DNA from: Aphelocoma coerulescens
Taxonomy: Eukaryota > Chordata > Aves > Passeriformes > Corvidae
Length of the DNA stretch: 64,000 bases
Direction: 5' to 3'
Assembly (NCBI RefSeq): GCF_041296385.1
Contig: NW_027183520.1
Coordinates: forward strand, 186,001-250,000
The notes beneath the pieces are model-generated. The model saw only the letters and a program-made list of their open reading frames with translations, did no database searches and was not told where the DNA came from. Both the position numbers and the translations under genes were made by a program. Each line of letters starts with the position of its first letter. The stretch's first letter is position 1. Of the stretch, positions 8,998-51,080 are shown piece by piece.

Positions 8998-11265
8998 GAG
9001 AATCATGTTGCACAGGGAACAGGGAAGGTCAGCAAATGTTTCCTGTCCTGGCACATCTCTCAGTCTGAACTGCAGCTGCAGATGCTTCACTTCCGCCAAG
9101 GACTCTGCCACCTTGAGAGAAGGATGCGCTCTATGGAGTTGAGAAAGAAAGTGCGTCTCACTAGCTTCTTTCCTCTACTTCATAGACAGCAAAGGGGCTA
9201 TGAAAGGCAGCACTGGCTTTTTGTTCTAGGACTTCTTCTTTACAAGCAGCTGCTGGATGTTTGGAAGGGGGTTTGGGATATGCAAAAATGAGAGGCTAAG
9301 ATGGTAAGAGGGTAAGATGGAAGTCATCTGGCAAAAGCAGAGCTCACAAAAGGGCCAGCTGAGAAAGCTCTTGCTGCCTACAACTTCAACTGCACCCCTC
9401 AAAGCAGCAGCACACACGCTGCTCTCGGCACTTTCCTTCTCAGCTCTACGCACCATCCTAAGCCTTGCCTCTCCCACACTCAGGATCCAAAGACAACGGC
9501 ACCAGGGACTGCTCACACACTAAAGGCACCAGGACAAAAGGCTCACCAGCTTGGCCTTTGCATTCCCGCTGACAGCTCCACAGCTTGAACCCAGAGAACT
9601 GCCTGCTGCCAACAGCCTTTCCAATCACTCTGAGCACCTCATGACAAGGAGTGTGGGGAATGAATCTCCAGCAGCCTCCTGCCCCAGGCTGTCCCCCGGG
9701 AGCAGCCCTGCTCCAGGCCGTGACTGCCACCTGCACAGCCAAAGGACCCAGAGCCGGTGTTACACACCACGGCTGTGCCTGGCACAGAGACACCAGTGGC
9801 CACACAAGTGGCCATGGCACTGTCCACACACAGTCCCTGCTGCTGCTCCCCCAGCCGCTGGCACCAACTCCCAGCCACCCACTCCTAAAGCCACGGGGCC
9901 CACTGGGACACTGCGGGGGCTCGTGGAAGCCAGCGGCCATTGTGACACAGCGGGGCTGCACAGAGCCCACGGTGCTTTGTGACCCGTGGCTCCCAGGAGA
10001 GCCTTTGTGATGCTGGGGAACTACAAGGAAGCCTGGCTCCTCTGTGACACCACCACAGAAGCTCAGGGGAGCCCTGGAGACCGTGCTGATGCTATTGAAC
10101 CTGATGCAACCCTGCCTCCTCTGGGACACCACAGAAGCTCTTGGAGCCCTGGAGACCGTGGTGATGCTATGGAACCTGATGCAACCCTGCCTCCTCTGTG
10201 ACACCACAGAACCTCTGGGAGCCCTGGAGACCGTGCTGATGCTATGGAACCTGATGCAACCCTGCCTCCACTGTGACACCACAGAAGCTCAGGGAGCCCT
10301 GGAGACTGTGGTGATGCTATGGAACCTGATGCAACCCTGCCTCCACTGTGACACCACAGAACCTCTGGGAGCCCTGGAGACCGTGCTGATGCTATGGAAC
10401 CTGATGCAACCCTGCCTCCACTGTGACACCACAGAAGCTCGGGGAGCTCTGCAGACCGTGGGGATGCTGGCGAAGCTGACGGAACCCTGGGCACCACAGT
10501 GACGCTATGGAACCTGGTGGAACCGAGGGGCCACAGTGACACTGTGGGGCCTTTTGGAAGCAACAGGACCCTGGTGGGAAGCCACGGGATGATTAATCCT
10601 GCACGAACCTGCTCCAGGTGGGCTCCTCTCTCCCGGCTTCCACAGGTGCTGCTAGGATCCCACTCCGGCACTGGCTTGGCACGGGCTCACGGCTTCCTTT
10701 GGCAATGGCTCTGCTCCAGGATGGCATGCTGCAGAGAATGCAGGTAGATTTTGTGCTCACTCCTGGCATGCAGCTGGACAATAAAGCCTGATCCAGCCCC
10801 CCCTCAGCATATGTCCGGCTCTGGCATTGGGGCGGGGCAACTTTGGGAGCAGCCCCAGCCCTGCTCCTGCTCCCGGCTGGGCACCCAGCTGCTGGGACAC
10901 AGGTGTGTCCTGATGCCACCGTCTACTCCTTTGAGAAGGGGAGGACAGAGTGCATCAGGGAGTTTGGTGTGGCTTACATGCGGCAAGGAGAAGGTGCAGC
11001 CCCAAACTGGCTTTCACTTCTAGAACCTTTTGCTATTGCGGGAGCAGCTGCTGGAGCTTTTCAACCGAGCTGCAAGAGTGAAAAGTGTGATGGCATGTCT
11101 ATCTGAGAAGGAAGGTTCGGTGCCGCAGCCTGTTGTGCACAATTTATATGCTGATAAGAGAAGGGGGTGCTTTTGGAACGTTTTCCTTCCTGACACTTCT
11201 GTCTCTGTGAGCTTTAGCTGCTTGGACTCAGGGATACCGAAGGTATGTGAAAGTGACTGGGATGC
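8998..11265. repeat. Array I unit 5 (haplotype B)
   Basis: The block at 10044-10502 matches unit 3 except for a private T-to-G change (CTCTGGGACACC) near 10,124. ATCCCACTCC near 10,659 is the B marker. Confidence 0.9.
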
Positions 11266-13533
11266 GAGAATCATGTTGCACAGGGAACAGGGAAGGTCAG
11301 CAAATGTTTCCTGTCCTGGCACATCTCTCAGTCTGAACTGCAGCTGCAGATGCTTCACTTCCGCCAAGGACTCTGCCACCTTGAGAGAAGGATGCGCTCT
11401 ATGGAGTTGAGAAAGAAAGTGCGTCTCACTAGCTTCTTTCCTCTACTTCATAGACAGCAAAGGGGCTATGAAAGGCAGCACTGGCTTTTTGTTCTAGGAC
11501 TTCTTCTTTACAAGCAGCTGCTGGATGTTTGGAAGGGGGTTTGGGATATGCAAAAATGAGAGGCTAAGATGGTAAGAGGGTAAGATGGAAGTCATCTGGC
11601 AAAAGCAGAGCTCACAAAAGGGCCAGCTGAGAAAGCTCTTGCTGCCTACAACTTCAACTGCACCCCTCAAAGCAGCAGCACACACGCTGCTCTCGGCACT
11701 TTCCTTCTCAGCTCTACGCACCATCCTAAGCCTTGCCTCTCCCACACTCAGGATCCAAAGACAACGGCACCAGGGACTGCTCACACACTAAAGGCACCAG
11801 GACAAAAGGCTCACCAGCTTGGCCTTTGCATTCCCGCTGACAGCTCCACAGCTTGAACCCAGAGAACTGCCTGCTGCCAACAGCCTTTCCAATCACTCTG
11901 AGCACCTCATGACAAGGAGTGTGGGGAATGAATCTCCAGCAGCCTCCTGCCCCAGGCTGTCCCCCGGGAGCAGCCCTGCTCCAGGCCGTGACTGCCACCT
12001 GCACAGCCAAAGGACCCAGAGCCGGTGTTACACACCACGGCTGTGCCTGGCACAGAGACACCAGTGGCCACACAAGTGGCCATGGCACTGTCCACACACA
12101 GTCCCTGCTGCTGCTCCCCCAGCCGCTGGCACCAACTCCCAGCCACCCACTCCTAAAGCCACGGGGCCCACTGGGACACTGCGGGGGCTCGTGGAAGCCA
12201 GCGGCCATTGTGACACAGCGGGGCTGCACAGAGCCCACGGTGCTTTGTGACCCGTGGCTCCCAGGAGAGCCTTTGTGATGCTGGGGAACTACAAGGAAGC
12301 CTGGCTCCTCTGTGACACCACCACAGAAGCTCAGGGGAGCCCTGGAGACCGTGCTGATGCTATTGAACCTGATGCAACCCTGCCTCCTCTGTGACACCAC
12401 AGAAGCTCTTGGAGCCCTGGAGACCGTGCTGATGCTATGGAACCTGATGCAACCCTGCCTCCTCTGTGACACCACAGAACCTCTGGGAGCCCTGGAGACC
12501 GTGCTGATGCTATGGAACCTGATGCAACCCTGCCTCCACTGTGACACCACAGAAGCTCAGGGAGCCCTGGAGACTGTGGTGATGCTATGGAACCTGATGC
12601 AACCCTGCCTCCACTGTGACACCACAGAAGCTCAGGGAGCCCTGGAGACTGTGGTGATGCTATGGAACCTGATGCAACCCTGCCTCCACTGTGACACCAC
12701 AGAACCTCTGGGAGCCCTGGAGACCGTGGGGATGCTGGCGAAGCTGACGGAACCCTGGGCACCACAGTGACGCTATGGAACCTGGTGGAACCGAGGGGCC
12801 ACAGTGACACTGTGGGGCCTTTTGGAAGCAACAGGACCCTGGTGGGAAGCCACGGGATGATTAATCCTGCACGAACCTGCTCCAGGTGGGCTCCTCTCTC
12901 CCGGCTTCCACAGGTGCTGCTAGGATCCCATTCCGGCACTGGCTTGGCACGGGCTCACGGCTTCCTTTGGCAATGGCTCTGCTCCAGGATGGCATGCTGC
13001 AGAGAATGCAGGTAGATTTTGTGCTCACTCCTGGCATGCAGCTGGACAATAAAGCCTGATCCAGCCCCCCCTCAGCATATGTCCGGCTCTGGCATTGGGG
13101 CGGGGCAACTTTGGGAGCAGCCCCAGCCCTGCTCCTGCTCCCGGCTGGGCACCCAGCTGCTGGGACACAGGTGTGTCCTGATGCCACCGTCTACTCCTTT
13201 GAGAAGGGGAGGACAGAGTGCATCAGGGAGTTTGGTGTGGCTTACATGCGGCAAGGAGAAGGTGCAGCCCCAAACTGGCTTTCACTTCTAGAACCTTTTG
13301 CTATTGCGGGAGCAGCTGCTGGAGCTTTTCAACCGAGCTGCAAGAGTGAAAAGTGTGATGGCATGTCTATCTGAGAAGGAAGGTTCGGTGCCGCAGCCTG
13401 TTGTGCACAATTTATATGCTGATAAGAGAAGGGGGTGCTTTTGGAACGTTTTCCTTCCTGACACTTCTGTCTCTGTGAGCTTTAGCTGCTTGGACTCAGG
13501 GATACCGAAGGTATGTGAAAGTGACTGGGATGC
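11266..13533. repeat. Array I unit 6 (haplotype A)
   Basis: The block at 12312-12770 is A type, and ATCCCATTCC near 12,926 is the linked marker. Full length, 2268 bp. Confidence 0.9.
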
Positions 13534-15800
13534 GAGAATCATGTTGCACAGGGAACAGGGAAGGTCAGCAAATGTTTCCTGTCCTGGCACATCTCTCAGT
13601 CTGAACTGCAGCTGCAGATGCTTCACTTCCGCCAAGGACTCTGCCACCTTGAGAGAAGGATGCGCTCTATGGAGTTGAGAAAGAAAGTGCGTCTCACTAG
13701 CTTCTTTCCTCTACTTCATAGACAGCAAAGGGGCTATGAAAGGCAGCACTGGCTTTTTGTTCTAGGACTTCTTCTTTACAAGCAGCTGCTGGATGTTTGG
13801 AAGGGGGTTTGGGATATGCAAAAATGAGAGGCTAAGATGGTAAGAGGGTAAGATGGAAGTCATCTGGCAAAAGCAGAGCTCACAAAAGGGCCAGCTGAGA
13901 AAGCTCTTGCTGCCTACAACTTCAACTGCACCCCTCAAAGCAGCAGCACACACGCTGCTCTCGGCACTTTCCTTCTCAGCTCTACGCACCATCCTAAGCC
14001 TTGCCTCTCCCACACTCAGGATCCAAAGACAACGGCACCAGGGACTGCTCACACACTAAAGGCACCAGGACAAAAGGCTCACCAGCTTGGCCTTTGCATT
14101 CCCGCTGACAGCTCCACAGCTTGAACCCAGAGAACTGCCTGCTGCCAACAGCCTTTCCAATCACTCTGAGCACCTCATGACAAGGAGTGTGGGGAATGAA
14201 TCTCCAGCAGCCTCCTGCCCCAGGCTGTCCCCCGGGAGCAGCCCTGCTCCAGGCCGTGACTGCCACCTGCACAGCCAAAGGACCCAGAGCCGGTGTTACA
14301 CACCACGGCTGTGCCTGGCACAGAGACACCAGTGGCCACACAAGTGGCCATGGCACTGTCCACACACAGTCCCTGCTGCTGCTCCCCCAGCCGCTGGCAC
14401 CAACTCCCAGCCACCCACTCCTAAAGCCACGGGGCCCACTGGGACACTGCGGGGGCTCGTGGAAGCCAGCGGCCATTGTGACACAGCGGGGCTGCACAGA
14501 GCCCACGGTGCTTTGTGACCCGTGGCTCCCAGGAGAGCCTTTGTGATGCTGGGGAACTACAAGGAAGCCTGGCTCCTCTGTGACACCACCACAGAAGCTC
14601 AGGGGAGCCCTGGAGACCGTGCTGATGCTATTGAACCTGATGCAACCCTGCCTCCTCTGTGACACCACAGAAGCTCTTGGAGCCCTGGAGACCGTGCTGA
14701 TGCTATGGAACCTGATGCAACCCTGCCTCCTCTGTGACACCACAGAACCTCTGGGAGCCCTGGAGACCGTGCTGATGCTATGGAACCTGATGCAACCCTG
14801 CCTCCACTGTGACACCACAGAAGCTCAGGGAGCCCTGGAGACTGTGGTGATGCTATGGAACCTGATGCAACCCTGCCTCCACTGTGACACCACAGAAGCT
14901 CAGGGAGCCCTGGAGACTGTGGTGATGCTATGGAACCTGATGCAACCCTGCCTCCACTGTGACACCACAGAACCTCTGGGAGCCCTGGAGACCGTGGGGA
15001 TGCTGGCGAAGCTGACGGAACCCTGGGCACCACAGTGACGCTATGGAACCTGGTGGAACCGAGGGGCCACAGTGACACTGTGGGGCCTTTTGGAAGCAAC
15101 AGGACCCTGGTGGGAAGCCACGGGATGATTAATCCTGCACGAACCTGCTCCAGGTGGGCTCCTCTCTCCCGGCTTCCACAGGTGCTGCTAGGATCCCATT
15201 CCGGCACTGGCTTGGCACGGGCTCACGGCTTCCTTTGGCAATGGCTCTGCTCCAGGATGGCATGCTGCAGAGAATGCAGGTAGATTTTGTGCTCACTCCT
15301 GGCATGCAGCTGGACAATAAAGCCTGATCCAGCCCCCCCTCAGCATATGTCCGGCTCTGGCATTGGGGCGGGGCAACTTTGGGAGCAGCCCCAGCCCTGC
15401 TCCTGCTCCCGGCTGGGCACCCAGCTGCTGGGACACAGGTGTGTCCTGATGCCACCGTCTACTCCTTTGAGAAGGGGAGGACAGAGTGCATCAGGGAGTT
15501 TGGTGTGGCTTACATGCGGCAAGGAGAAGGTGCAGCCCCGAACTGGCTTTCACTTCTAGAACCTTTTGCTATTGCGGGAGCAGCTGCTGGAGCTTTTCAA
15601 CCGAGCTGCAAGAGTGAAAAGTGTGATGGCATGTCTATCTGAGAAGGAAGGTTCGGTGCCGCAGCCTGTTGTGCACAATTTATATGCTGATAAGAGAAGG
15701 GGGTCTTTTGGAACGTTTTCCTTCCTGACACTTCTGTCTCTGTGAGCTTTAGCTGCTTGGACTCAGGGGTACCGAAGGTGTGTGAAAGTGACTGGGATGC
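13534..15800. repeat. Array I unit 7 (haplotype A; the A/B alternation stops here)
   Basis: The block at 14580-15038 is A type, directly after another A unit. Near 15,703 one G is missing (GGGGGTCTTTTGG instead of GGGGGTGCTTTTGG). This deletion and several substitutions are shared with unit 8 and mark the start of the diverged right edge. Confidence 0.9.
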
Positions 15801-17998
15801 AAGAATCATGTTGCACAGGGAACAGGGAAGGTCAGCAAATGTTTCCTGTCCTGGCACATCTCTCAGTCTGAACTGCAGCTGCAGATGCTTCACTTCCGCC
15901 AAGGACTCTGCCACCTTGAGAGAAGGATGCGCTCTATGGAGTTGAGAAAGAAAGTGCGTCTCACTAGCTTCTTTCCTCTACTTCATAGACAGCAAAGGGG
16001 CTATGAAAGGCAGCACTGGCTTTTTGTTCTAGGACTTCTTCTTTACAAGCAGCTGCTGGATGTTTGGAAGGGGGTTTGGGATATGCAAAAATGAGAGGCT
16101 AAGATGGTAAGAGGGTAAGATGGAAGTCATCTGGCAAAAGCAGAGCTCACAAAAGGGCCAGCTGAGAAAGCTCTTGCTGCCTACAACTTCAACTGCACCC
16201 CTCAAAGCAGCAGCACACACGCTGCTCTCGGCACTTTCCTTCTCAGCTCTACGCACCATCCTAAGCCTTGCCTCTCCCACACTCAGGATCCAAAGACAAC
16301 GGCACCAGGGACTGCTCACACACTAAAGGCACCAGGACAAAAGGCTCACCAGCTTGGCCTTTGCATTCCCGCTGACAGCTCCACAGCTTGAACCCAGAGA
16401 ACTGCCTGCTGCCAACAGCCTTTCCAATCACTCCGAGCACCTCATGACAAGGAGCTGCAGCGTGTGGGGAATGAATCTCCAGCAGCCTCCTGCCCCAGGC
16501 TGTCCCCCGGGAGCAGCCCTGCTCCAGGCCGTGACTGCCACCTGCACAGCCAAAGGACCCGGAGCCGGTGTTACACACCACGGCTGTGCCTGGCACAGAG
16601 ACACCAGTGGCCACACAAGTGGCCATGACTGTCCACACACAGTCCCTGCTGCTGCTCCCCCAGCCGCTGGCACCAACTCCCAGCCACCCACTCCTAAAGC
16701 CACGGGGCCCACTGGGACACTGCGGGGGCTCGTGGAAGCCAGCGGCCATTGTGACACAGCGGGGCTCCACAGAGCCCATGGTGCTTTGTGACCCGTGGCT
16801 CCCAGGAGAGCCTTTGTGATGCTGGGGAACTACAAGGAAGCCTGGCTCCTCTGTGACACCACCACAGAAGCTCAGGGGAGCCCTGGAGACCGTGCTGATG
16901 CTATGGAACCTGATGCAACCCTGCCTCCTCTGTGACACCACAGAAGCTCTTGGAGCCCTGGAGACCGTGCTGATGCTATGGAACCTGATGCAACCCTGCC
17001 TCCTCTGTGACACCACAGAAGCTCTTGGAGCCCTGGAGACCGTGGTGATGCTATGGAACCTGATGCAACCCTGCCTCCACTGTGACACCACAGAACCTCT
17101 GGGAGCCCTGGAGACCGTGCTGATGCTATGGAACCTGATGCAACCCTGCCTCCACTGTGACACCACAGAAGCTCGGGGAGCCCTGGAGACTGTGGGGATG
17201 CTGGCGAAGCTGACGGAACCCTGGGCACCACAGTGACGCTATGGAACCTGGTGGAACCGAGGGGCCACAGTGACACTGTGGGGCCTTTTGGAAGCAACAG
17301 GACCCTGGTGGGAAGCCACGGGATGATTAATCCTGCACGAACCTGCTCCAGGTGGGCTCCTCTCTCCCGGCTTCCACAGGTGCTGCTAGGATCCCACTCC
17401 GGCACTGGCTTGGCACGGGCTCACGGCTTCCTTTGGCAATGGCTCTGCTCCAGGATGGCATGCTTCAGAGAATGCAGGTAGATTTTGTGCTCACTCCTGG
17501 CATGCAGCTGGACAATAAAGCCTGATCCAGCCCCCCCTCAGCATATGTCTGGCTCTGGCATTGGGGCGGGGCAACTTTGGGAGCAGCCCCAGCCATGCTC
17601 CTGCTCCCGGCTGGGCACCCAGCTGCTGGGACACAGGTGTGTCCTGATGCCACCGTCTACTCCTTTGAGAAGGGGAGGACAGAGTGCATCAGGGAGTTTG
17701 GTGTGGCTTACATGCGGCAAGGAGAAGGTGCAGCCCCGAACTGGCTTTCACTTCTAGAACCTTTTGCTATTGCAGGAGCAGCTGCTGGAGCTTTTCAACC
17801 GAGCTGCAAGAGTGAAAAGTGTGATGGCATGTCTATCTGAGAAGGAAGGTTCAGTGCCGCAGCCTGTTGTGCACAATTTATATGCTGATAAGAGAAGGGG
17901 GTCTTTTGGAACGTTTTCCTTCCTGACACTTCTGTCTCTGTGAGCTTTAGCTGCTTGGACTCAGGGGTACCGAAGGTGTGTGAAAGTGACTGGGATGC
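15801..17998. repeat. Array I unit 8 (diverged edge type)
   Basis: 2198 bp. The minisatellite block at 16853-17236 has one repeat fewer and a repeat order unlike A or B. A short insertion (GGAGCTGCAGCGTGTGG) near 16,452 and a small deletion near 16,625 are absent from units 1-7. The insertion recurs in unit 9. Confidence 0.9.
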
Positions 17999-23208: not shown

Positions 23209-23212
23209 TGAT

Positions 23213-23678
23213 TGTAATAAATGAGGGTATTTTGTTCATTGAAAAGAGCTGACACAGGCCACAATGTACATAACAGGAAATGTCTTAACAAATCTATATG
23301 TAAAGGTTGTAAGTGCTGTAAGTGTACTATTGTTTAAGCTCCAGGAAGAAAAGCAGGGGATACTAACTGACCAAATATGGAAAAGGTCACCCAGAGGGCA
23401 CTTGAAGAAGACTACTAGCCTTCAGCCATCGACCACCAGAAGGCAAAAAACGACCCCCTAGCAACAAGTTCACACATGCGCAGAGTACTCCCTTAAAGAA
23501 GAGTTAACAGGAAACGATCCTGCATAAAAGAAGGACTGAAATTTGCAAACCCCTGCAGCAATTCGGTGGAGCGGGGACTCCCCTGTCGCCCAGCGCTGAT
23601 TTTGCTTATGCCTTGCTTGCTGTAATTAATAAATTCTCTAATTTGATTAAACCTCTTTGTCTGCCTCCATCAATCACA
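23213..23678 (+). repeat. 5' LTR (466 bp)
   Basis: Starts TGTAATAA and ends AATCACA. It is the same length as the 3' LTR and differs from it at five positions, all transitions. A TATA-like element lies at 23,524-23,530 and AATAAA at 23,628-23,633, so R spans roughly 23,550-23,650 and U5 is very short. Confidence 0.96.
23524..23530 (+). promoter_or_regulatory. TATA-like element of the 5' LTR
   Basis: ATAAAAG about 100 bp upstream of the LTR poly(A) signal. Transcription would be expected to start about 25-30 bp downstream. The same element is at 31,977-31,983 in the 3' LTR, where it could drive flanking host DNA. Confidence 0.65.
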
Positions 23679-23681
23679 ATT

Positions 23682-23699
23682 TGGTGCCGTGACTCGGAT
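23682..23699 (+). promoter_or_regulatory. Primer-binding site, tRNA-His
   Basis: TGGTGCCGTGACTCGGAT, three bases after the LTR end, is complementary to the 3' end of animal tRNA-His including CCA. This primer defines H-type ERVs and differs from the Pro or Trp primers usual in classical gamma and avian leukosis viruses. Confidence 0.9.
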
Positions 23700-24085
23700 G
23701 GGAATGGTACGGTAAGACAGAGATATCGGGGAGGCGCCCCACCTCTGGTGGCCTCGGTATCTTCAGTCTTTACCTCGCTCCCACCGACGAACCTAAACTC
23801 AAGGCATTAAGCAAAGGGAACCGGTCGACCCCATAAACTTTGTGCACAGAGGTCCGGACGAAGACGCTGGAAGCGTGAGTATTTGCGGAAAAGGGATCCG
23901 TTCGGTCGGGGTCGGGTATCCTGGAGTGTGGCGAGTGTGGTGTGTGAGAGGGGGGCCGGCAGCCAGACTCCCCAAGCGAGTGTGGACCCTCAGTAGTGCG
24001 GCTCCCATTGCCCGCGAGGGCGTGGGCCACGAACCAGGGGAAGCGAGTGATTCCACACACAGAACGCCTGAAGGCACTCCAGAGG
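23700..24085 (+). other. Retroviral leader with candidate splice donor
   Basis: Untranslated region between the primer site and gag. CGGTAAGA at about 23,711-23,718 is a good 5' splice site (GT at 23,712-23,713) and the best candidate for making subgenomic mRNAs. The packaging signal would be expected here but cannot be recognised by eye. An open frame continues upstream of the gag ATG from about 23,996, without an ATG. Confidence 0.6.
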
Positions 24086-25525
24086 ATGGGACAGGGGAAA
24101 AGCAAGCCCTCTAGTTCCATAAGGTTTCCCCCAGTACCTGAGGATAGTCCGTTAGGGCTTTTATTGAATAATTGGAGGCATTATTCGAGTACACAGAATA
24201 AAGATAAGGCCAAGATGATTTATTATTGCATAGAGGTCTGGGGAGGAAAGCAGATATCACGAAACGTATTTTGGCCTATATTTGGGTCCTACGAGGACTG
24301 GGTGAGACAGGATTTGAATTTATGGGTAAAAACCAAAACTCCTTTTAGTCGAGAAGAGAGTGAATATGCAAAAATATGGATAGAGACCCCTGGGGTACTC
24401 CTGTTTACTTTAAAGGAAAAATCTGAAGACTCAGGGGCAAGAAGAAAAGATAAAAAGAAAGAGGAAGTTCCGATGATTCCACCCCCCTATATACCTCCGC
24501 AGGCCCCACAGGCACCCCCACTCCCACTCCCTGAGCAGCCCCTAGAGGAAGAAGAAGGGAATCCTGAACCTGAACGGGAGGGACCAATGACAAGGAGCAG
24601 AGCTAGACGTCATAACCTTTATCCATTAAGAGAAATGCCTATGGGGGGACCCCAACCAGGAATTGGCTTTATTTCAGTTCCCCTTAGCTCTGGAGATGTG
24701 CGGGACTTTAAGAAGGAAATGGGGAACCTATTAGAAGACCCCCTGGGAGTTGCAGAGAAGCTAGATCAATTTTTAGGCCCTAATATATACACCTGGGATG
24801 AGCTGCAGTCAATTCTAAATATTCTTTTTACTGCAGAAGAAAAGAACATGATTAGGCGAGCGGGAATGCGAATTTGGGATGCCCAACATGCTCAGGGCCC
24901 ACAGGCAGATATCAAATGGCCTTTACAAAACCCTAATTGGGATCATCAGGATCCAGCACACAGAACTCATATGCAGAACTTAAGGACAATAGTTATACAA
25001 GGGGTCCGAGAGGCAGTACCAAAAGGACAAAACATAAATAAGGCCTTTAATGAGAGGCAGAGAAAGGAGGAAACTCCAACAGATTGGCTAGAAAGAGTAA
25101 GAAAGAATCTACAGCTGTATTCAGGCCTGGACCCAGATACACAGTTGGGTCAGGCACTTCTGAAAACTCAATTTGTAGCCAAATCATGGGATGACATCAG
25201 GAAGAAGCTAGAAAAACTAGAAAATTGGCAGGAGAGAGGATTAGATGAATTGTTGAGAGAAGCACAGAAAGTATATGTCAGGAGGGATGAAGAGAATCAC
25301 AAGAGACAAGTCAGAATGATGGTGGCAGCAGTAAGGGAAAGCAGAAAACAAGACTCTCCCCGCCGAATGGGGCAGATGCCCAGAAAGGCCCCTAGGAACA
25401 CAGAGGGAAATCAGAGGGTAGAAAGGAGGGAAGCAGTCGTATGTTTTTATTGTGGGGAGAAGGGACACATCAGAAGGGATTGCAGAAAGAGGATAAGAGA
25501 TGAAAAGATGTTTAAAGAAGATTAG
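24086..25525 (+). CDS. ERV Gag polyprotein (479 aa)
   Basis: Structural polyprotein that would assemble the core and package RNA. The ATG at 24,086 is chosen because it gives an N-terminal Met-Gly (MGQGK), a myristoylation signal; the frame extends upstream but has no other ATG. From N to C: a matrix region; a proline-rich linker with a PPPY late-domain motif at residues 132-135, which recruits NEDD4-type ligases for budding; a capsid region from about residue 180 with a major-homology-like stretch (ETPTDWLERV); and a nucleocapsid with one CCHC zinc knuckle at about 453-466 (C-X2-C-X4-H-X4-C). A single knuckle and this order fit gammaretroviruses. The frame is open throughout and ends in UAG. 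No activity can be inferred. Confidence 0.95.
   Translation: MGQGKSKPSSSIRFPPVPEDSPLGLLLNNWRHYSSTQNKDKAKMIYYCIEVWGGKQISRNVFWPIFGSYEDWVRQDLNLWVKTKTPFSREESEYAKIWIETPGVLLFTLKEKSEDSGARRKDKKKEEVPMIPPPYIPPQAPQAPPLPLPEQPLEEEEGNPEPEREGPMTRSRARRHNLYPLREMPMGGPQPGIGFISVPLSSGDVRDFKKEMGNLLEDPLGVAEKLDQFLGPNIYTWDELQSILNILFTAEEKNMIRRAGMRIWDAQHAQGPQADIKWPLQNPNWDHQDPAHRTHMQNLRTIVIQGVREAVPKGQNINKAFNERQRKEETPTDWLERVRKNLQLYSGLDPDTQLGQALLKTQFVAKSWDDIRKKLEKLENWQERGLDELLREAQKVYVRRDEENHKRQVRMMVAAVRESRKQDSPRRMGQMPRKAPRNTEGNQRVERREAVVCFYCGEKGHIRRDCRKRIRDEKMFKED
25523..25525 (+). promoter_or_regulatory. UAG stop between gag and pol, likely readthrough site
   Basis: Gag ends in UAG and pol continues in the same frame with no further stop. 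The next bases, AGGGGTCAGGGG, form a purine-rich spacer resembling the one after the murine leukaemia virus gag stop, where a pseudoknot promotes readthrough. A pseudoknot here is inferred, not folded. Confidence 0.75.
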
Positions 25526-28500
25526 AGGGGTCAGGGGCTCTACTTACTGGGGACCAAGAAACATCCAGAGCCCTTGATAAAAATAAAAGTCGGTCCCCAA
25601 TGCCAGGAATTTGAATTCCTGGTAGATACGGGAGCAGAAAGATCAACTATCCAAGTTTTACCATCTGGGTGTAAAGTCTCCCGAGACACTGCCCTTGTAG
25701 TGGGTGCCAAGGGTGAACCTTTTGAGGTCCCTGTTATTAAAGATGTCCTAATAGAAACCGAATCAAAAATAGGAATAGGAAGCCTTTTGTTGGCACCAGA
25801 AGCAGAGTATAACCTCATGGGTAGAGATCTCATAGTAGAATTGGAAATAAACCTAGAGGTAATTAATAAAGAATTGAGAATCAAACTATGCCCCCTTAGA
25901 GTAGAGGATGAAAAGGAGATTAACCCTGAGGTATGGTACACACCTGACAGTGTGGGCCAACTGAACATTCCGCCCTTCTCCGTAACCATAAAAGATCCAG
26001 AAATTCCAATAAGGATCAAGCAGTATCCCATATCCCCAGAAGGGAAACGAGGACTAAAGCCTGAAATAGACAGACTAATAAGCAAGGGACTCCTAGAGCC
26101 CTGTATGTCCCCTTTTAATACACCCATTTTACCAGTAAAGAAACCAGATGGATCCTATCGATTAGTGCATGATTTAAGAGAAATTAATAAGAGGACAGTG
26201 GCCCGGTTCCCGGTGGTTGCTAACCCATACACCCTATTAAGTAGACTAGGGCCAGAAAATCACTGGTATAGTGTAATTGATCTAAAAGATGCATTTTGGG
26301 CCTGCCCCTTAGACGAAAATAGTAGAGATTATTTTGCCTTTGAATGGGAGGACCCAGATACTCATAGGCGACAACAGTTGCGGTGGACCGTGCTGCCACA
26401 AGGGTTCACAGAATCACCAAATTTATTTGGACAAGCATTAGAACAAATCCTCCAAGAATATCAAACAAGAGAAAACATTACTTTGATTCAGTATGTGGAT
26501 GACCTCCTGATTGCAGGAAGAAAAGAAGAAGAAGTTCGGGAGGAGAGCATTAAACTGTTAAACTTTCTAAGCTTGAAGAGACTAAAAGTATCAAAGGCAA
26601 AATTACAGTTTGTAGAAGAAGAAGTAAAATATTTAGGCCATTATTTGAGTAAAGGAGAGAAGAAAATAGACCCCGAAAGAGTGAAAGGAATCCTCTCACT
26701 CCCGCCACCAAGGAGCAAGAGACAAGTAAGGCAATTGCTAGGATTAGTAGGCTACTGTAGACAATGGATTGATAATTATAGTACCAAGGTCAAATTTCTG
26801 TATAACAAGCTCAGTCATGACGGGTTATTGAAATGGAGCAGAGAGGATGAGAGGAATTTAGAACAACTGCAACAGGATTTAATTAATGCTCCAGTACTAA
26901 GTTTACCTGATTTAAAAAGACCATTTTATCTATTTGTAAACATTGAAAATGGGACAGCATATGGAGTATTAACTCAAGATTGGGCTAGGAGAAAGAAACC
27001 GGTAGGATACTTGTCAAAGCTATTAGATCCAGTAAGCAAGGGATGGCCTACATGCCTACAGGCAGTGGTAGCCTGTGCTCTCTTAGTAGAAGAAGCACGT
27101 AAAATAACTTTTAATGGGGAACTCAAGGTATTATCTCCACATAACATTAGGGGAATATTGCAACAAAAAGCTGAAAAATGGATAACAGATTCGAGACTTT
27201 TAAAGTATGAAGGGATCTTATTAGATTCCCCAAAGCTAACACTAGAGGTCACTACACTACAAAATCCGGCCCAGTTCTTATACGGAGAACCAAATGAGAA
27301 TAAATTAGCCCATGATTGCATGTTAACTATAAAAGAACAAACCAAAATCCGACCGGACTTAGAAGAAGAAGAATTAGAAGAAGGGGAGAGGCTGTTTGTA
27401 GACGGATCATCTCGGGTAATAGAGGGAAAGAGAGTATCTGGCTATGCAATCATTAAAGAGGAAGGGTCAGAAGTCTTAGAGTCAGGACCTCTAAGTAGAT
27501 CCTGGTCAGCTCAAGCTTGTGAATTGTATGCAGTCTTACGAGCTCTGAGATTGCTGAAAAATAAAACAGGGACAATATATACAGACTCCAAATATGCATA
27601 TGGAGTGGTACATACATTTGGGAAAATATGGGAAGAACGAGGGTTAATAAACTCTCAAGGGAAAGACTTAGTCCATCAGGAGCTAATAAGACAGCTACTC
27701 CAGGCCTTACAGGAGCCTAGAAGAATTGCTGTAGTACATCTCAGAGGTCACCAGAAAGGAATAGATTTTAGAAGTAGAGGTAATAACGCAGCAGACCAAG
27801 AAGCAAAAAGGGCAGCACTTTTGGTTATACGACAAGTTCAGGATAAGAACCAACCAAAGGAGAAATTCCCCAATAAAACTAGGTGCATTTATAGTTTTAC
27901 AGAACAAGAAAAAGAGAAACTATCACAAATGGGGCTAAAAGAAAATTCAGAAGGAGAATGGAAACTCCCAGATGGAAGAGTAGCACTACCTAAATCAATA
28001 GCAGTGGAAATTTTACAAAGGATACATAGCCAAACTCATTGGGGAACACAAGCACTAGCAGACCAGTTTGCCGCTAAGTATATGTGTATTGGAATATATA
28101 ATTTGGCAAAACAAATTGTTAAAGGCTGCATAACTTGCCTTAAAGTGAATAAGGCTTATTTAAGAGAACGCCCATTGGGAGGGAGACCACTAGCACACAG
28201 GCCCTTTGCTAACATACAACTAGATTTCACCGAATTGCCCAAAGTAAGAAGAAGTAAATACTTATTAGTTATAGTAGACCATCTAACGCATTTTGTCGAA
28301 GCATTTCCCACAGCAAGGGCAACAGCACAGACAGTGGTCAAAGTTCTATTAGAAAATATTATCCCTAGATATGGAATAATTGAGACTATTGACTCCGACC
28401 GAGGACCCCACTTTGTATCTAAAATCATCAAAGAAGTAATGGGAATTATGGGAATAAAGTGGAAATATCATACCCCCTGGCATCCCCAAAGTTCAGGACG

Positions 28501-29047
28501 AGTAGAAAGAATGAATGGAGAAATAAAGAAGCAATTGACAAAGCTTATGCTTGAAACCAAGTTGTCGTGGGTGAAATGTCTACCATTAGCTTTGTTAAAC
28601 ATACGGACTCAACCAAGATCTGACATGGGAATCTCCCCTTTTGAGATGCTGTATGGAATGCCTTATAATGTGGGGGAACCTCAAGATCACCCAAATCTAA
28701 GAGACCAAAACATGAATCATTACATTATTACCTTAATGAGATATAGAGAAGAATTATGGAAAAAGGGCATGATAACTCAAAGGCCCCCGCTAGAACTTAA
28801 ACTACATCGAATTCAACCAGGAAATTGGGTATTAATCAAATCATGGAAAGAAACCTCATTAACCCCACAATGGGAGGGACCTTATCTTGTTCTACTTACT
28901 ACAAAAACAGCAATAAGAACAGCTGAAAGAGAATGGACGCATGCAAGCAGAATTAAAGGACCTGTGGAAAAGCCATCCCCCCAGTGGCAAGTAACCAGTC
29001 CTCCTGGAGACTTAAAATTGAAAATTCAAAGAAAAGACTGTAAATGA
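25526..29047 (+). CDS. ERV Pol: protease, RT, RNase H, integrase (1173 codons)
   Basis: Enzymatic polyprotein, made as a Gag-Pol extension. Numbering from the codon after UAG: aspartic protease with LVDTGA from residue 32; reverse transcriptase with YVDD at 323-326; RNase H with its four acidic residues at D626, E666, D687 and D757; integrase with an HHCC zinc site (H834, H838, C868, C871) and the catalytic triad D900, D958, E994, which has 35 residues between the last two. The C-terminus has a GPY/F-like segment (WEGPYLVLL). Every signature I checked is present and no frame break is seen, which is unusual for an avian ERV and agrees with the young LTRs. Its stop overlaps the next ORF as ATGA. 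Confidence 0.96.
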   Translation, partial: RGQGLYLLGTKKHPEPLIKIKVGPQCQEFEFLVDTGAERSTIQVLPSGCKVSRDTALVVGAKGEPFEVPVIKDVLIETESKIGIGSLLLAPEAEYNLMGRDLIVELEINLEVINKELRIKLCPLRVEDEKEINPEVWYTPDSVGQLNIPPFSVTIKDPEIPIRIKQYPISPEGKRGLKPEIDRLISKGLLEPCMSPFNTPILPVKKPDGSYRLVHDLREINKRTVARFPVVANPYTLLSRLGPENHWYSVIDLKDAFWACPLDENSRDYFAFEWEDPDTHRRQQLRWTVLPQGFTESPNLFGQALEQILQEYQTRENITLIQYVDDLLIAGRKEEEVREESIKLLNFLSLKRLKVSKAKLQFVEEEVKYLGHYLSKGEKKIDPERVKGILSLPPPRSKRQVRQLLGLVGYCRQWIDNYSTKVKFLYNKLSHDGLLKWSREDERNLEQLQQDLINAPVLSLPDLKRPFYLFVNIENGTAYGVLTQDWARRKKPVGYLSKLLDPVSKGWPTCLQAVVACALLVEEARKITFNGELKVLSPHNIRGILQQKAEKWITDSRLLKYEGILLDSPKLTLEVTTLQNPAQFLYGEPNENKLAHDCMLTIKEQTKIRPDLEEEELEEGERLFVDGSSRVIEGKRVSGYAIIKEEGSEVLESGPLSRSWSAQACELYAVLRALRLLKNKTGTIYTDSKYAYGVVHTFGKIWEERGLINSQGKDLVHQELIRQLLQALQEPRRIAVVHLRGHQKGIDFRSRGNNAADQEAKRAALLVIRQVQDKNQPKEKFPNKTRCIYSFTEQEKEKLSQMGLKENSEGEWKLPDGRVALPKSIAVEILQRIHSQTHWGTQALADQFAAKYMCIGIYNLAKQIVKGCITCLKVNKAYLRERPLGGRPLAHRPFANIQLDFTELPKVRRSKYLLVIVDHLTHFVEAFPTARATAQTVVKVLLENIIPRYGIIETIDSDRGPHFVSKIIKEVMGIMGIKWKYHTPWHPQSSGRVERMNGEIKKQLTKLMLETKLSWVKCLPLALLNIRTQPRSDMGISPFEMLYGMPYNVGEPQDHPNLRDQNMNHYIITLMRYREELWKKGMITQRPPLELKLHRIQPGNWVLIKSWKETSLTPQWEGPYLVLLTTKTAIRTAEREWTHASRIKGPVEKPSPQWQVTSPPGDLKLKIQRKDCK

Positions 29048-29694
29048 GCAAATACAAAATCGAGTATTTACCCAATCCTCTGTATACAGATGAAGGACTA
29101 ATTTTTAAAAATGATGTTAGAATAAGGTGTGGGAATTCTAATTGTAGATGTTATCCTTTTGTTTGTTATATATGTATAGTATGCAGGGAAAAGTGGTGGA
29201 GTCATTGTGAAAGGGGAACTCCCCCCAGAGGTGTTTGCATCCCCTGCCGGAAGCTTCAAGGTCAATTTACTAATTGGGCTCTAGCACATGCAGTATCACG
29301 AGGAATTCTAAAAAAGGGGTCAAGTGAATGGTGGGAAATAGTATTTAAGGGAATTAATCCCCATTATTATTGTTACAACTTTAACTTACCGGCCCCCTTT
29401 GTAGCTGACATCTGTGACAGCATTTGTCGCAAACGCCTGAGGGGAGTCCAGTGTAACACTCCAGAAGTTAAGAACCGTAATTGGAACTCCTACATTAAGA
29501 GGCAAGAAACCCGACAGGCTCGATCCCAAGGACCTCCTGAAGAATACTCCTGCTGCCGAGAAGATAGTACCCCTCGTGGCCCGAAGCAACCGGGTCGACG
29601 AGCGAGGCAGAGGAGTAAAAAGCTGTGGAGGAAAGAACCCCTGTATTGGGATACTAGAGCAATGCTTGCAGAACTGCCTCAGGAGTGGGACTAG
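29044..29694 (+). CDS. Unassigned 216-aa Cys-rich, basic ERV protein
   Basis: An open frame between pol and env, in a frame different from both. Its ATG overlaps the pol stop (ATGA, 29,044-29,047). Classical alpha- and gammaretroviruses have no gene here. Residues 29-68 hold nine Cys and one His, including C-X2-C pairs at 41/44, 44/47 and 65/68, which suggests metal binding. More Cys lie at 110, 124, 128, 137, 170 and 171. Residues 185-197 form an Arg/Lys-rich patch (GRRARQRSKKLWRK) that could be a nuclear-localisation or RNA-binding motif. A Cys-rich part followed by a basic part recalls complex-retrovirus regulators in layout only. I see no signal peptide. It could be an accessory protein, a displaced env leader, or captured sequence. 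Expression route unknown: termination-reinitiation or splicing. Confidence 0.7.
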   Translation: MSKYKIEYLPNPLYTDEGLIFKNDVRIRCGNSNCRCYPFVCYICIVCREKWWSHCERGTPPRGVCIPCRKLQGQFTNWALAHAVSRGILKKGSSEWWEIVFKGINPHYYCYNFNLPAPFVADICDSICRKRLRGVQCNTPEVKNRNWNSYIKRQETRQARSQGPPEEYSCCREDSTPRGPKQPGRRARQRSKKLWRKEPLYWDTRAMLAELPQEWD

Positions 29695-29818
29695 AAAGCC
29701 TCAGTGTGACCCACCACATGTGAAAGGGGGAAAGACACCACCAAACTATAGTAACCAAATAACTATTACCACAAATCGACTCCACCATTTAGCCTAGCGT
29801 AGTATTTTTCTACTAATC
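29695..29818 (+). other. Segment between the 216-aa ORF and env
   Basis: The env frame is open upstream of 29,795 (back to at least 29,576) but has no ATG there and is closed by TAG at 29,795-29,797. A hydrophobic stretch straddles the env ATG (SIFLLIMLCLI), as though the signal peptide began upstream of the present start. Confidence 0.5.
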
Positions 29819-31645
29819 ATGCTTTGCTTAATTAAATTGAACGGGGTTGAGACTTTAGAAGAGACACACTTTCCACACGAACCCTTTAAACGGTCATTAG
29901 TTAGGTTAAGTGATAATAGGATACTACAAACAAATACCACTGTAGGGGCACCAAGTTTTCGAGCGGGATTATGTGATCTAACAGCTATTGAACACTGTGG
30001 AAAAGAACTAAACCTAACAGGATTTTATATGTGTCCAACCGCTAATCGAGGGAAATCATACTGTAATTATCCAGGAGAATATTTCTGTGGATATTGGGGG
30101 TGTGAGACAATAGCCTCCGACTGGATCCCGGGAGGGGGACCAGACAAATTTCTGAAAGCTGGGTTCGGGCCCGTAGGGTGCACTAAGCCACGAAGAGGAC
30201 CTTCTGGAGAGACGACATATATGGGGACCTGTTCCTTTATATATATAAATATAATGCAACCCACTAATCCGGATTGGTTACTGGGGAAAATCTGGGGAAT
30301 CAGACACTGGGAACCCGAGAAAGATAGAGGAAACCTAATAATGATTAAGAAAGAACACGCACCCCCTGATCCAGAACTAGTTGGACCAAACCAGGGTCTA
30401 GGGGAACTAGAGGAAATAGGCAATATAAACAAAACTCAGCAAGTTGGTAGTATAACAATTACTCCCCAGAGCGAGAATCCAACTGATGTTAAAACAAATT
30501 TAGAATATAGTGCTCTATGGAAGATCATGCAAGCTAGTTATGGTGTAATAAATAAGACCAATCCAGAGCTAACTAAGGAATGCTGGTTATGTTACAACAT
30601 CAGGCCGCCTTTTTATGAAGGAATAGGTGTGACTGCAAAGGCTAGAAGAATTAACGGCACAAACCCAGCACAATGTCTTTGGAAACAGAGAAAAGAATCA
30701 ATTCAAGGACTGACTTTGTCTCAAGTAACTGAGAAAGGAAGATGTATAGGAAACATTCCAAAACATAAAGAACATTTGTGTGAGGTAAAGATATCACCTA
30801 AAGAAGATGAAAAACCTGCAGATTGGTTGCTCCCAGCCGCAAATACTAAATGGGTGTGTAACAATATAAGAATCACACCCTGCCTTTCACTCAAACTATT
30901 TAATTACACCCACGATTATTGTATTCAAGTGTCCATCATACCTCGAATCACGTATCATCCTAGTGAATACATGTACCAACAACACACCACAGCAGATCAT
31001 CACCTAGTAAAAAGAGAACCTTTTACTGCATTAACCATAGCAACCCTTCTCACTATAGGAGGAGTTGGGGCAGGAACTGGAACAGCATCCTTAGTCACCC
31101 AGCAAAAAGAGTTAAGAGCACTAAGGGTCTCAGTAGATGAAGATCTAAGCCGAATAGAACAAGCAATTGATGGCCTAGTAAAATGAGTAAGATCTCTATC
31201 AGAAGTAGTCCTACAAAATAGGAGGGGTTTAGACTTATTATTCCTTCAGCAGGGAGGACTGTGTGTAGCACTCAAAGAAGAATGCTGTGTCTACGCAGAC
31301 CACACTGGGGTAGTGATAGACACCATGACTGAACTAAGAAAACGGCTAGAACAACGGAAAAGAGAAAGAGAGGCACAACAGAGCTGGTATGAATCCTGGT
31401 TTAACCATTCACCCTGGTTAACCACTTTGTTATCTACCATCGCAGGGCCTCTACTTCTGTTAGTCCTAGGACTCACATTTGGGCCGTGTATACTTAATAA
31501 GTTGATCTCCATAGTAAAAGGGCGCTTAGAAGTAGCACATTTAATGCTCCTTAGGGCTAAATACCAGCAGATATCAGAAAATCATGAAGAAGAAATGTTA
31601 GAATTAGCTAAACAGGAGCTAAAAAGATTCAATGAACAAAAATGA
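29819..31645 (+). pseudogene. ERV env, interrupted by one in-frame TGA
   Basis: Envelope glycoprotein gene, 608 codons if the break is ignored. The surface part has several N-X-S/T sites and a CXXC (CWLC, codons 255-258). The subunit boundary is a weak basic site (LVKR, codons 396-399) followed by a hydrophobic, Gly/Ala-rich segment that looks like a fusion peptide. TGA at 31,184-31,186 (codon 456) stops translation within the ectodomain of the transmembrane subunit. Beyond it the same frame stays open with CX6CC (Cys 482, 489, 490), a membrane segment at about 31,421-31,496 and a tail of roughly 50 residues. CXXC plus CX6CC is the gamma-type covalent envelope signature. As it stands the product would lack the membrane anchor. 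The signal peptide at the N-terminus is also short or incomplete. Confidence 0.9.
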
Positions 31646-31650
31646 ACAAG

Positions 31651-31664
31651 AGAAAAAGGGGGGA
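31651..31664 (+). promoter_or_regulatory. Polypurine tract
   Basis: AGAAAAAGGGGGGA immediately before the 3' LTR; this is the primer site for plus-strand DNA synthesis. Confidence 0.92.
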
Positions 31665-31665
31665 T

Positions 31666-32131
31666 TGTAATAAATGAGGGTATTTTGTTCATTGAAAAGA
31701 GCTGACACAGGCCACAACGTACATAACAGGAAATGTCTTAACAAATCTATATGTAAAGGTTGTAAGTGCTGTAAGTGTACTATTGTTTAAGCTCCAGGAA
31801 GAAAAGCAGGGGATACTAACTGACCAAATATGGAAAAGGTCACCCAGAGGGCACTTGAAGAAGACTACTAGCCTTCAGCCACCGACCACCAGAAGGCAGA
31901 AAACGACCCCCTAGCAACAAGTTCACACACGCGCAGAGTACTCCCTTAAAGAAGAGTTAACAGGAAACGATCCTGCATAAAAGAAGGACTGAAATTTGCA
32001 AACCCCTGCGGCAATTCGGTGGAGCGGGGACTCCCCTGTCGCCCAGCGCTGATTTTGCTTATGCCTTGCTTGCTGTAATTAATAAATTCTCTAATTTGAT
32101 TAAACCTCTTTGTCTGCCTCCATCAATCACA
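31666..32131 (+). repeat. 3' LTR (466 bp)
   Basis: Full-length partner of the 5' LTR, beginning TGTAATAA and ending AATCACA, followed by the TGAT target duplication. It keeps CpG at three of the five sites where the two LTRs differ. Confidence 0.96.
32081..32086 (+). terminator. Poly(A) signal of the 3' LTR
   Basis: AATAAA at the same LTR offset as 23,628-23,633 in the 5' copy. It would direct 3'-end formation of proviral transcripts. Confidence 0.75.
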
Positions 32132-32135
32132 TGAT

Positions 32136-48898: not shown

Positions 48899-51080
48899 GG
48901 CTGTGCTGGTTTGGACAAATTTGGAGGAAAATATCCTCTGATAGAAGGCAGGTTACACCCAGCCCTCCCCCATCAGGTTTGGGAAAAAAGAATTTTCCTG
49001 GGAAGAAAGTGAAAGAGATAAAACCTATTTTTTTAACAAACACACAGGAAAAGGATAACAATGCTAAATATTAAAACCTCTCGCTGTGCAGAGAAACCTG
49101 GGATAATTTGAGAGTCCTTCTGTGTTTCGGTGGGGTCTCCTGAAACATCCATAGACAGCGAGGCCCGTGCAAAGAAATAGGGACGGATTCTTAAAAGAAG
49201 TTTCAGAGCTCTTTCTTCTCCAGCCACACGGGCGGGGCACTGCCAAAGAACTGAGCAATCACGGCACAACCAGGGCCCTCCTTGCACAGGGCAACACAAA
49301 ATAAGCAGTGCTGAACAGGATTAGGGCACATGTGAGCAGGGAGCAGGGAGACCCCCCGTTCCCAGGCCATGCCTCTACCCCAGGGTCCCCTCTCCCATGA
49401 CCTCATGGCAGGGGGGAGGAACCCCAACACTTCCGTAGGTGCAGTCTCTCTCCTCCTCCTTGCAGCTGGCTCATGGGCCCACATTCAGGGCCCCCACCTC
49501 GGGAGAAAATTCTCCCAATGTGGTCTGATGTGGAAACAGTCAAGAAGAGAAGAAGGGAAAAAAACCCCCAAAGTCCCAGGAAAACAAAGTTCAACTCTCC
49601 ATCTCCCCCCAGAGAAAAGGAGCTGAAAACTGGCTAAAAAGAAACCAAGTTGCTTCCTCTGCTCTTGCTGCAAGCAGGATGCAGAGGAGTGTGTATGTGT
49701 GTCCTTGAACAAACGCTCTGAGAAGTTTGTCCGGTTTTTTTTCCTCTCCCCCCTCTCAGGCTCAGTTGAAAGGCACAGAAATGCACAAAGTTCACTTCTG
49801 GGCATAGAGCAGCGATAGGGGATACACATGATAAAGTCACCCCAAGACACAGGGAGAGAGAATTCAGTGGAAAGACTCCGAGAATTCTGCTCCCAGAGAT
49901 CATTCATTCCTGCTCACACTGACCCTTGTAGAAAGGGGACATCGTTCCCGGCAGCCTGTACTGAGCATGTGGCTCCTGAGTAGGGTTTGTTGTTTAGGAA
50001 ACCTGCTCCGGCTTTTCCATTCTTTCCTTCCAAACAGGAAAACTTCTCCTGGGGCTGTGTGCAGGCAGAGCCCTGAGGAGAGCAGGTGGCACATGGTGCG
50101 CTGGGCTGGGACAGCCAGCTGCAGAGCTCAAGGGAAGAAGCCCAAAGTGTCACAATGGCTCCTTGCCTTCACATGCAACACCTGGGTCACAATGGTCTCC
50201 TTGATTCCATGAGGCCCCACTGTGTCACAATGGCTCCTTGGTTCCATCAGGTTCCGCAGTGTCACCATGGTCTCCTTTGATCCGCACTGTCATCATGGAC
50301 AATTGGTTCCATGAGGCCCCGCAGTGTCACAATGGTCCCTTGCTTCCATAGCTTTGATGTTGTAACAATGGACTCCTTGCTTCTATGAGCTAGCCTGCTT
50401 TTTGCAGAGGTGTCTTTGGTTCCCACAAGGCCCCGCTGTGTCTCAGTGCACCCTGGCTTCCATGTGGATCTGGAGTATCACAAAGGCTCCTTGGTTCCAC
50501 CAGGTCCTGCTGTGTCACAATGGGTCCTGTGGTCCCTGAGGCCCTCCAAAGTCATCATGGAGGCTTGCTTCCATGAGGTTCCATGATGTGCCAGTGGTCA
50601 TCTTGGTTCCAGGAGTTTCCTTAGTGTCACAATGCTCTCCATGCTTCCATTAGGCCCTGCTTTGCCACAATGGTCCCCTTGTTTCCATGAGGCCCCGCTG
50701 TGTCACAATGGACGTACGGTTCCATGATGTTGCGTGGTGTCACCGTGCTCTTCTTGAATCCGCAGTGTAACCATGGACCATTGGTTCCATGTGGCCTGGC
50801 TGTGTCACAATGGGCTCCTTGATTCCATGATTCCCCACGGTGTCACAATGGAGCCTTGTTTCTAGGAGGTTCTGTACTGTCACAATGGTCTCCTTGATGC
50901 CATCAGCCCCTGCAGTGTCACAATGGCTCCTTGGTTCCATGAGGAACACAATAGCTTGGCATAAGCATTGAGCAACAGCTGCTGAACACACCTGGCAACA
51001 TCTGCTTGCATCAAAAGAGGGCTTCAAGCTGACAATGGCACCAGCAGCTTCCATCTGCAACAGAGACCCAGGAAAGGACA
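48899..51080. repeat. Array II unit 1 (edge unit, alpha-like)
   Basis: Minisatellite part at about 50,146-50,945. It is 2182 bp because one minisatellite repeat (about 35 bp, CTTCCATGATTCCCCACAAT) present in the other units is missing near 50,640. It carries CTCCTTGCAGCTGG, the alpha form, near 49,460, but GATGTGGAAAC as in the beta units. Confidence 0.88.

Follow-up and report, generated by a model that had tools for sequence, protein, structure and literature searches.

The window analysed here, a stretch of 64,000 nucleotides from Aphelocoma coerulescens (NCBI RefSeq assembly GCF_041296385.1, contig NW_027183520.1, positions 186,001 to 250,000 of the forward strand), harbours an endogenous retrovirus (ERV) at 23213-32131, and between its pol and env genes lies an open frame of 216 codons, hereafter called X (Table 1). 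The initial annotation of this DNA had described X as overlapping the pol stop codon by ATGA, with a cluster of nine cysteines and one histidine in residues 29-68, an arginine/lysine patch at residues 185-197, and intact gag and pol genes upstream. All of these descriptions are borne out: the frame runs from 29044 to 29694 and encodes 216 amino acids with its ATG overlapping the pol stop, the cysteines are residues 29, 34, 36, 41, 44, 47, 55, 65 and 68 and the histidine is residue 54, the patch reads RRARQRSKKLWRK, and gag and pol are both open in one shared frame with a stop between them (23948-25525 and 25526-29047). Our comparison with related proviruses and proteins indicates that X is a genuine accessory gene, belonging to a gammaretrovirus-like lineage of birds and found between pol and env in two ERV families.

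By its sequence the provirus is a gammaretrovirus-like (class I) ERV. The pol frame has an MLVIN_C match of 1.9e-10 in Pfam, and its reverse transcriptase (RT) piece matches MLV/XMRV-type RT in the PDB at 3e-47, with foamy-type RT (2.5e-16) and HIV RT far weaker, where the virus names are those which we take to stand behind the matched entries. Moreover the gamma-type Env motifs are present, namely CWLC in the surface subunit (SU) and CX6CC in the transmembrane subunit (TM), here as CVALKEECC, together with TLV_coat matches. The env of the window is broken, as its leader start codon is missing and in-frame stops occur. The primer-binding site is presumably of the tRNA-His type. In the alignment of the long terminal repeats (LTRs) and flanks, the two LTRs of 466 nt each differ at 5 of 466 sites, every one of them a transition, and with an avian substitution rate near 2e-9 per site per year the provirus would be roughly two to three million years old.

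Table 1. Features of the X-bearing provirus, in positions of the window.
Feature	Position	Strand	Basis
Target-site duplication TGAT	23209..23212; 3' copy 32132-32135	.	LTR and flank alignment
5' LTR, 466 nt	23213..23678	+	5 mismatches to 3' LTR
Primer-binding site	23682..23699	+	sequence
Candidate splice donor for subgenomic mRNAs	23711..23716	+	sequence; predicted
gag frame, stop to stop	23948..25525	+	Gag_p30 6.3e-29; one CCHC zinc knuckle (Pfam)
pol frame, same frame as gag past a stop	25526..29047	+	protease, RT, RNase H, integrase, MLVIN_C (Pfam)
Candidate X splice acceptor (AG after a C-rich stretch)	28983..28984	+	read by eye
X, accessory gene, 216 codons	29044..29694	+	open frame, relatives, host copies, dN/dS
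X Cys/His cluster, residues 29-68, proposed zinc-binding core	29128..29247	+	conservation; metal binding inferred
Candidate env-mRNA splice acceptor within X, last base of AG	29404	+	pyrimidine-rich scan; predicted
env leader frame, overlapping the X 3' end in another frame	29564..29797	+	reading of copies
X Arg/Lys patch, residues 184-197, inside the env overlap	29593..29634	+	sequence, conservation
env SU and first part of TM, closed by an in-frame stop	29798..31186	+	TLV_coat 2.3e-49
Remainder of env TM	31187..31645	+	TLV_coat 6e-56
3' LTR	31666..32131	+	LTR alignment

Three protein searches, covering proteins of 0.55-1.75 times the length of X, yielded 29 distinct relatives at 35-98% identity. 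Almost all are nameless predictions from sequence-archive assemblies, the one annotated entry being LOC126043156, an uncharacterised goshawk (Accipiter gentilis) protein; broken copies of X are under-represented among them because the database holds predicted frames only. Relatives at 35-59% identity share the length of X and its cysteine framework. In alignment A4, whose 27 rows are 26 of the 29 relatives (P0002, P0016 and P0024 being omitted) plus the window, at least 90% of the rows keep C34, C36, C44, C47, H54, C55, C68, W51, W97, P106 and others, and P61, T76, L80, G103 and C128 are invariant in all rows. An earlier alignment, A3, omits P0002, P0016, P0021 and P0024 of a previous set of 23 relatives. 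Four relatives, P0014, P0019, P0028 and P0030, form one supported clade (100/99). As for relatives outside this family, the Pfam searches gave only chance matches for 20 of 20 X members and no host protein relative, and no recognisable host homologue of X was found in Pfam, the PDB or the protein searches within the above length range. These results bear on the idea that X derives from a host gene or domain that was captured and kept for signalling, for which crocodilian ERVs offer a precedent at the same site, since the excerpts of PMC4299795 describe in CrocERV29 a KIT-ligand captured between pol and env and under purifying selection. Such an origin is improbable for X, given the chance-level Pfam matches and given that the sole named relative, the goshawk entry, is ERV-like in its identity.

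In the host genome X has at least 143 match rows, a lower bound because 150 of the 198 candidates were scored. A diverged group of proviruses carries X at 74-77% identity (L009-L013) or 66-69% (L014); L009 and L010 have the frame open, and frameshifts or stops break it in L011-L014. A second ERV family, L015-L024, has X at the same place between pol and env, again overlapping the pol end; its integrase is about 58-62% identical to that of the window in the longest matches and its X about 29-41%, and the family is mostly decayed, with X open in L015 and L016. Besides these, 74 of the at least 143 rows cover all of residues 1-216 with at least 94% identity, and 63 of the 74 are stop-free. The near-identical copies are mostly duplicated pieces of the genome: among the 5' flanks of 39 of them, 18 lie at the site of the window, eight at a second site and two at a third, seven have sites of their own, three are unresolved, and that of C27 matches the window flank only partially. 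High copy number was considered as evidence for a function of X and was rejected, as 26 of the 39 sampled copies are duplicates of two insertions, the second of which (at least eight copies) has X stopped at residue 51. At junction-resolved insertion sites, the window's included, X is open in 8 of 10, and the protein is identical at five of these eight (C1, C4, C7, C38 and C642). Together with its 5' flank, the provirus lies in a genome segment that has been copied many times, often on short contigs.

To measure selection, the ratio of nonsynonymous to synonymous substitution rates (dN/dS) was computed with stop codons and gapped codons skipped. For the core of X, defined as 29044-29553, the window compared with L009, L010 and L012, three of the six diverged copies, gives 0.27-0.29 (95% bootstrap range 0.15-0.49), and with X taken in full the range over all six diverged copies is 0.29-0.40. 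In the three core comparisons the synonymous divergence (dS) is 0.62-0.67 in the X core and 0.47-0.48 in the pol end; the value of about 0.6 is similar to that of about 0.5 in the neighbouring pol end, and therefore X is as old as pol there. Between the clades of the second family the core ratio is 0.11-0.13 (bootstrap 0.06-0.25; 3 pairs), which is uncertain since dS exceeds 1.5, against 0.065 for integrase, and all 10 pairs tried give 0.07-0.14, one being not computable. When the divergence between the window and L009 was simulated without selection, in 20,000 runs matched to 77 transitions and 34 transversions, X acquired 5.1 stops on average as against the 0 observed, and it stayed stop-free in 0.46% of runs; the observed 51 nonsynonymous codons compare with 67 on average in the simulation, whose minimum was 49. 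Judged by these codon comparisons, the X core is under purifying selection.

The suspicion voiced at the outset, that related frames might prove not to be kept open, is rejected by the open X in related proviruses, and dN/dS among these, which had been proposed as a check, is well below 1. Hence an origin of X as a chance frame, surviving through young insertions and segmental duplication, has a virtually negligible probability and is refuted: although 26 of the 39 sampled near-identical copies duplicate two insertions and the LTRs differ at so few sites, relatives at 35-59% identity have equal length and the same cysteine framework, dN/dS is well below 1 and the neutral simulation is rejected. 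The first view, which saw in X an accessory or regulatory gene belonging to a little-known lineage of avian ERVs, is thus supported, as the frame is open and selected in related proviruses and does not belong to the env reading frame.

The relation of X to env deserves attention in itself. The open frame of env extends upstream into X, and the overlap consists of the last ~130 bases of X. Of the 17 loci read, 10 have an env-frame ATG within the stretch of X that encodes CCREDG. The window lacks this ATG, as do L014 and five further copies of the window's insertion; in seven of the 10 ATG-bearing loci a leader of ~77 codons is open to the hydrophobic stretch and SU, and a stop interrupts it in L009, L011 and L013. 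In the second family the ATG occurs in 6 of 10 copies and is followed by a short leader and a hydrophobic stretch. Moreover in three database relatives (P0014, P0019 and P0028) the X frame ends just beyond the point of the env ATG. The start codon of env thus probably sits inside X in most other copies read, and this ATG is the putative ancestral env start. The leader region, 29564-29797, has the form of a long env leader (~77 codons where open) ahead of the hydrophobic stretch; long env signal peptides of betaretroviruses are described in published abstracts as having regulatory roles. Splicing of a leader ATG onto 29,803 as the env initiator was also considered and rejected, since other copies do not preserve the acceptor on which it would depend and most of them have the env-frame start inside X.

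The region 28050-30400, when compared with L009-L013, is a recombinant mosaic with switches near 28.55 and 29.54 kb: these copies differ from the window by 2-8% as far as about 28.55 kb, by 9-35% between that point and about 29.54 kb, and by 1-7% past it. As the pol end and the X core are diverged and the X tail and env near-identical, the tract of pol end and X core has been exchanged as a block, separately from the X tail and env; and as the former are old and the latter young, the X core travelled with pol. This bears directly on whether X is an env leader or a by-product of constraint on the env frame, a reading suggested by the overlap of its last ~130 bases with the env leader and by the constraint on the env frame in the overlap of the second family. 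For the core the reading is refuted, since the first ~137-170 codons of X lie outside the env frame and are themselves under purifying selection, and since the mosaic has the core moving with pol; for X at large it is very improbable. The initial annotation had named identity with part of an env leader as what would undo its proposal, and this fails for the X frame as such and holds only in that the last ~130 bases overlap the env frame.

What the protein might do is approached here through its conserved parts. Metal binding, which had been suggested from the cysteine content, is plausible from the near-invariant cysteines and histidine, and binding of RNA or DNA through the arginine/lysine patch is plausible for the two families. 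An AlphaFold2 model of the relative P0004, made with a deep alignment, has a mean predicted local distance difference test score (pLDDT) of 83.8, with block means of 85-98 for residues 1-160. In the model, strands 39-43 and 50-54 and helix 66-86 follow the cysteine pairs 44/47 and 65/68, and such an order is also known from treble-clef zinc fingers. A Foldseek search with this model gave no match at E<=0.001 in the PDB or in BFVD (viral models). As for the patch, RRxRQR is kept in 13 of the 15 loci read, where it changes synonymously in the X frame and the overlapping env-frame residues change, and RRARQR occurs in 13 of the 16 A4 rows that reach the patch. It looks as though the patch is selected in the lineages that have it, yet it is not present in every X. 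Since the core is shared by all members and the patch is not, the common function must lie in the core.

Our preferred reading, to which we give a probability of about 0.4, is that X is a zinc-stabilised nuclear RNA-binding regulator made from a spliced mRNA. X would be translated from an mRNA joining a donor at about 23,712 to an acceptor shortly before 29,044. One or two zinc ions, bound by eight or nine of the Cys/His residues, would stabilise the core of X, which is about 155 residues long. Where a lineage has retained the C-terminal arginine-rich patch, this would direct X to the nucleus and let it bind RNA, most likely that of the virus, and X would in this way regulate the expression or export of viral RNA, a task like that of Tat or Rev performed by an unrelated protein. 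The donor stretch near 23,712, already proposed in the initial annotation, is present in the window and in 8 of the 10 leader segments fetched from other copies, one having a changed donor base, and the candidate acceptor AG of X is kept in the copies shown and is not among the top rows of the acceptor scan.

Several findings weigh against this regulator reading. In the overlap of the second family (~30 codons, 10 pairs) dN/dS is 0.83-1.90 in the X frame and 0.21-0.56 in the env frame, so that it is the env frame that is constrained. The patch is absent in P0014, P0019 and P0028, which are of one sub-lineage, so that one X clade manages without it, and it is also absent in L022, a decayed copy of the second family; in the P0004 model the C-terminal part with the patch has low confidence (block means 46-69 beyond residue 160). 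Moreover an RNA fold scan of the provirus in 85 windows gave no outstanding element (lowest z -2.9), and profile and sequence searches gave no Pfam or PDB sequence relative of X.

The main and serious rival, possible but on the whole doubtful, is that X counteracts a host restriction factor or serves as an adaptor to a host complex. X is placed like lentiviral vif, directly after integrase, and it evolves faster than integrase, with 76% identity between the window and L009 as against 91% and with a dN/dS of 0.28 as against 0.09-0.21. Besides, changes from tryptophan codons to stops recur in X copies (residues 51 and 147), and LTR elements of birds are said, in the excerpts of PMC6523648, to undergo editing by APOBEC proteins. 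However, such changes in a few copies are no proof of editing, and neither P0001 nor any of the 20 members searched gave a Pfam match to the Vif family at E<=1. The between-clade dN/dS of 0.11 in the second family is below what is usual for arms-race genes, whose values are usually higher; such a low ratio favours a conserved partner over an arms race.

Some side observations may be recorded. The stops at tryptophan codons lie at residue 51 in one insertion and at residue 147 in copy C35, and the database relatives P0010 and P0012 end right where residue 147 of X would fall; the recurrence could be due to editing or to chance. Elsewhere in the window, 1054-17223 is a tandem array with a 2268-bp unit and inner 75-bp minisatellites at 3247, 5515, 7783, 10051, 12319 and 14587, in exact spacing. 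The unit length is a multiple of three, and minus-strand open frames of 276 and 207 codons recur in it. A second large array, 50182-64000, has units of ~2.2 kb with an inner 37-bp minisatellite.

Retroviruses are split into simple and complex ones by their accessory genes, and the gammaretroviruses represent the simple kind. The excerpts of the 2005 survey by Jern and colleagues (PMC1224870) list accessory genes in delta-, lenti-, epsilon-, spuma- and some betaretroviruses, and caution that an accessory gene of unknown type is not easily recognised and that absence is hard to ascertain; the finding of X fits this caution. In the open-licence literature no description of the X gene was found, subscription papers, preprints and repeat libraries being outside that scope. 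Altogether, an entire avian gammaretrovirus-like lineage is probably complex, with an accessory family that has no known viral or host relative and a core fold yet unsolved, long kept and partly overlapping the env start; some viruses of the usually simple type thus appear to have an accessory protein. A selected X in a gamma-type lineage of birds offers a new place to ask why accessory genes arise, and it raises the questions of which host barrier or step of RNA handling in birds such genes answer to and what makes some ERV lineages spread. With its small size the protein lends itself to a direct test.

The comparison with known systems gives likeness and difference at once. Lentiviral Vif, like X, is encoded just behind integrase, is rich in Cys and His and has conserved tryptophans, but X has no Pfam match to it at E<=1 and has an arginine-rich tail and a gamma-like virus backbone. 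Tat, with a cysteine cluster followed by an arginine-rich stretch, and Rev, with an arginine-rich stretch, resemble X in these elements. They differ in that X is a single exon between pol and env with a structured core of ~155 residues, in that no match to the Tat and Rev families was found at E<=1 for X or 20 members, and in that the arginine-rich stretch is not in all X members, three relatives (P0014, P0019 and P0028) ending before it. The Rec, Rem and other env signal peptides of betaretroviruses such as HERV-K and MMTV share with the window's family a long env leader near an arginine-rich stretch, but they are encoded in the env frame, whereas the X core and the arginine-rich stretch are in another frame. 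CrocERV29 likewise has an extra gene between pol and env under purifying selection, according to the excerpts of PMC4299795, although its KIT-ligand is a recognisable host gene and X has no host relative among those searched. The closest likeness of the provirus as a whole is to the MLV-type gammaretroviruses, with which it shares gag and pol in one frame with a stop between them, an MLV-type RT, the integrase C-terminal domain, a single CCHC knuckle, a TLV_coat env with CWLC and CX6CC, and a 4-bp target duplication. Classical gammaretroviruses, to our knowledge, carry no gene between pol and env, where this provirus has X; and while the gammaretroviral env start normally overlaps the pol end, here it would lie 0.5 kb downstream, inside X.
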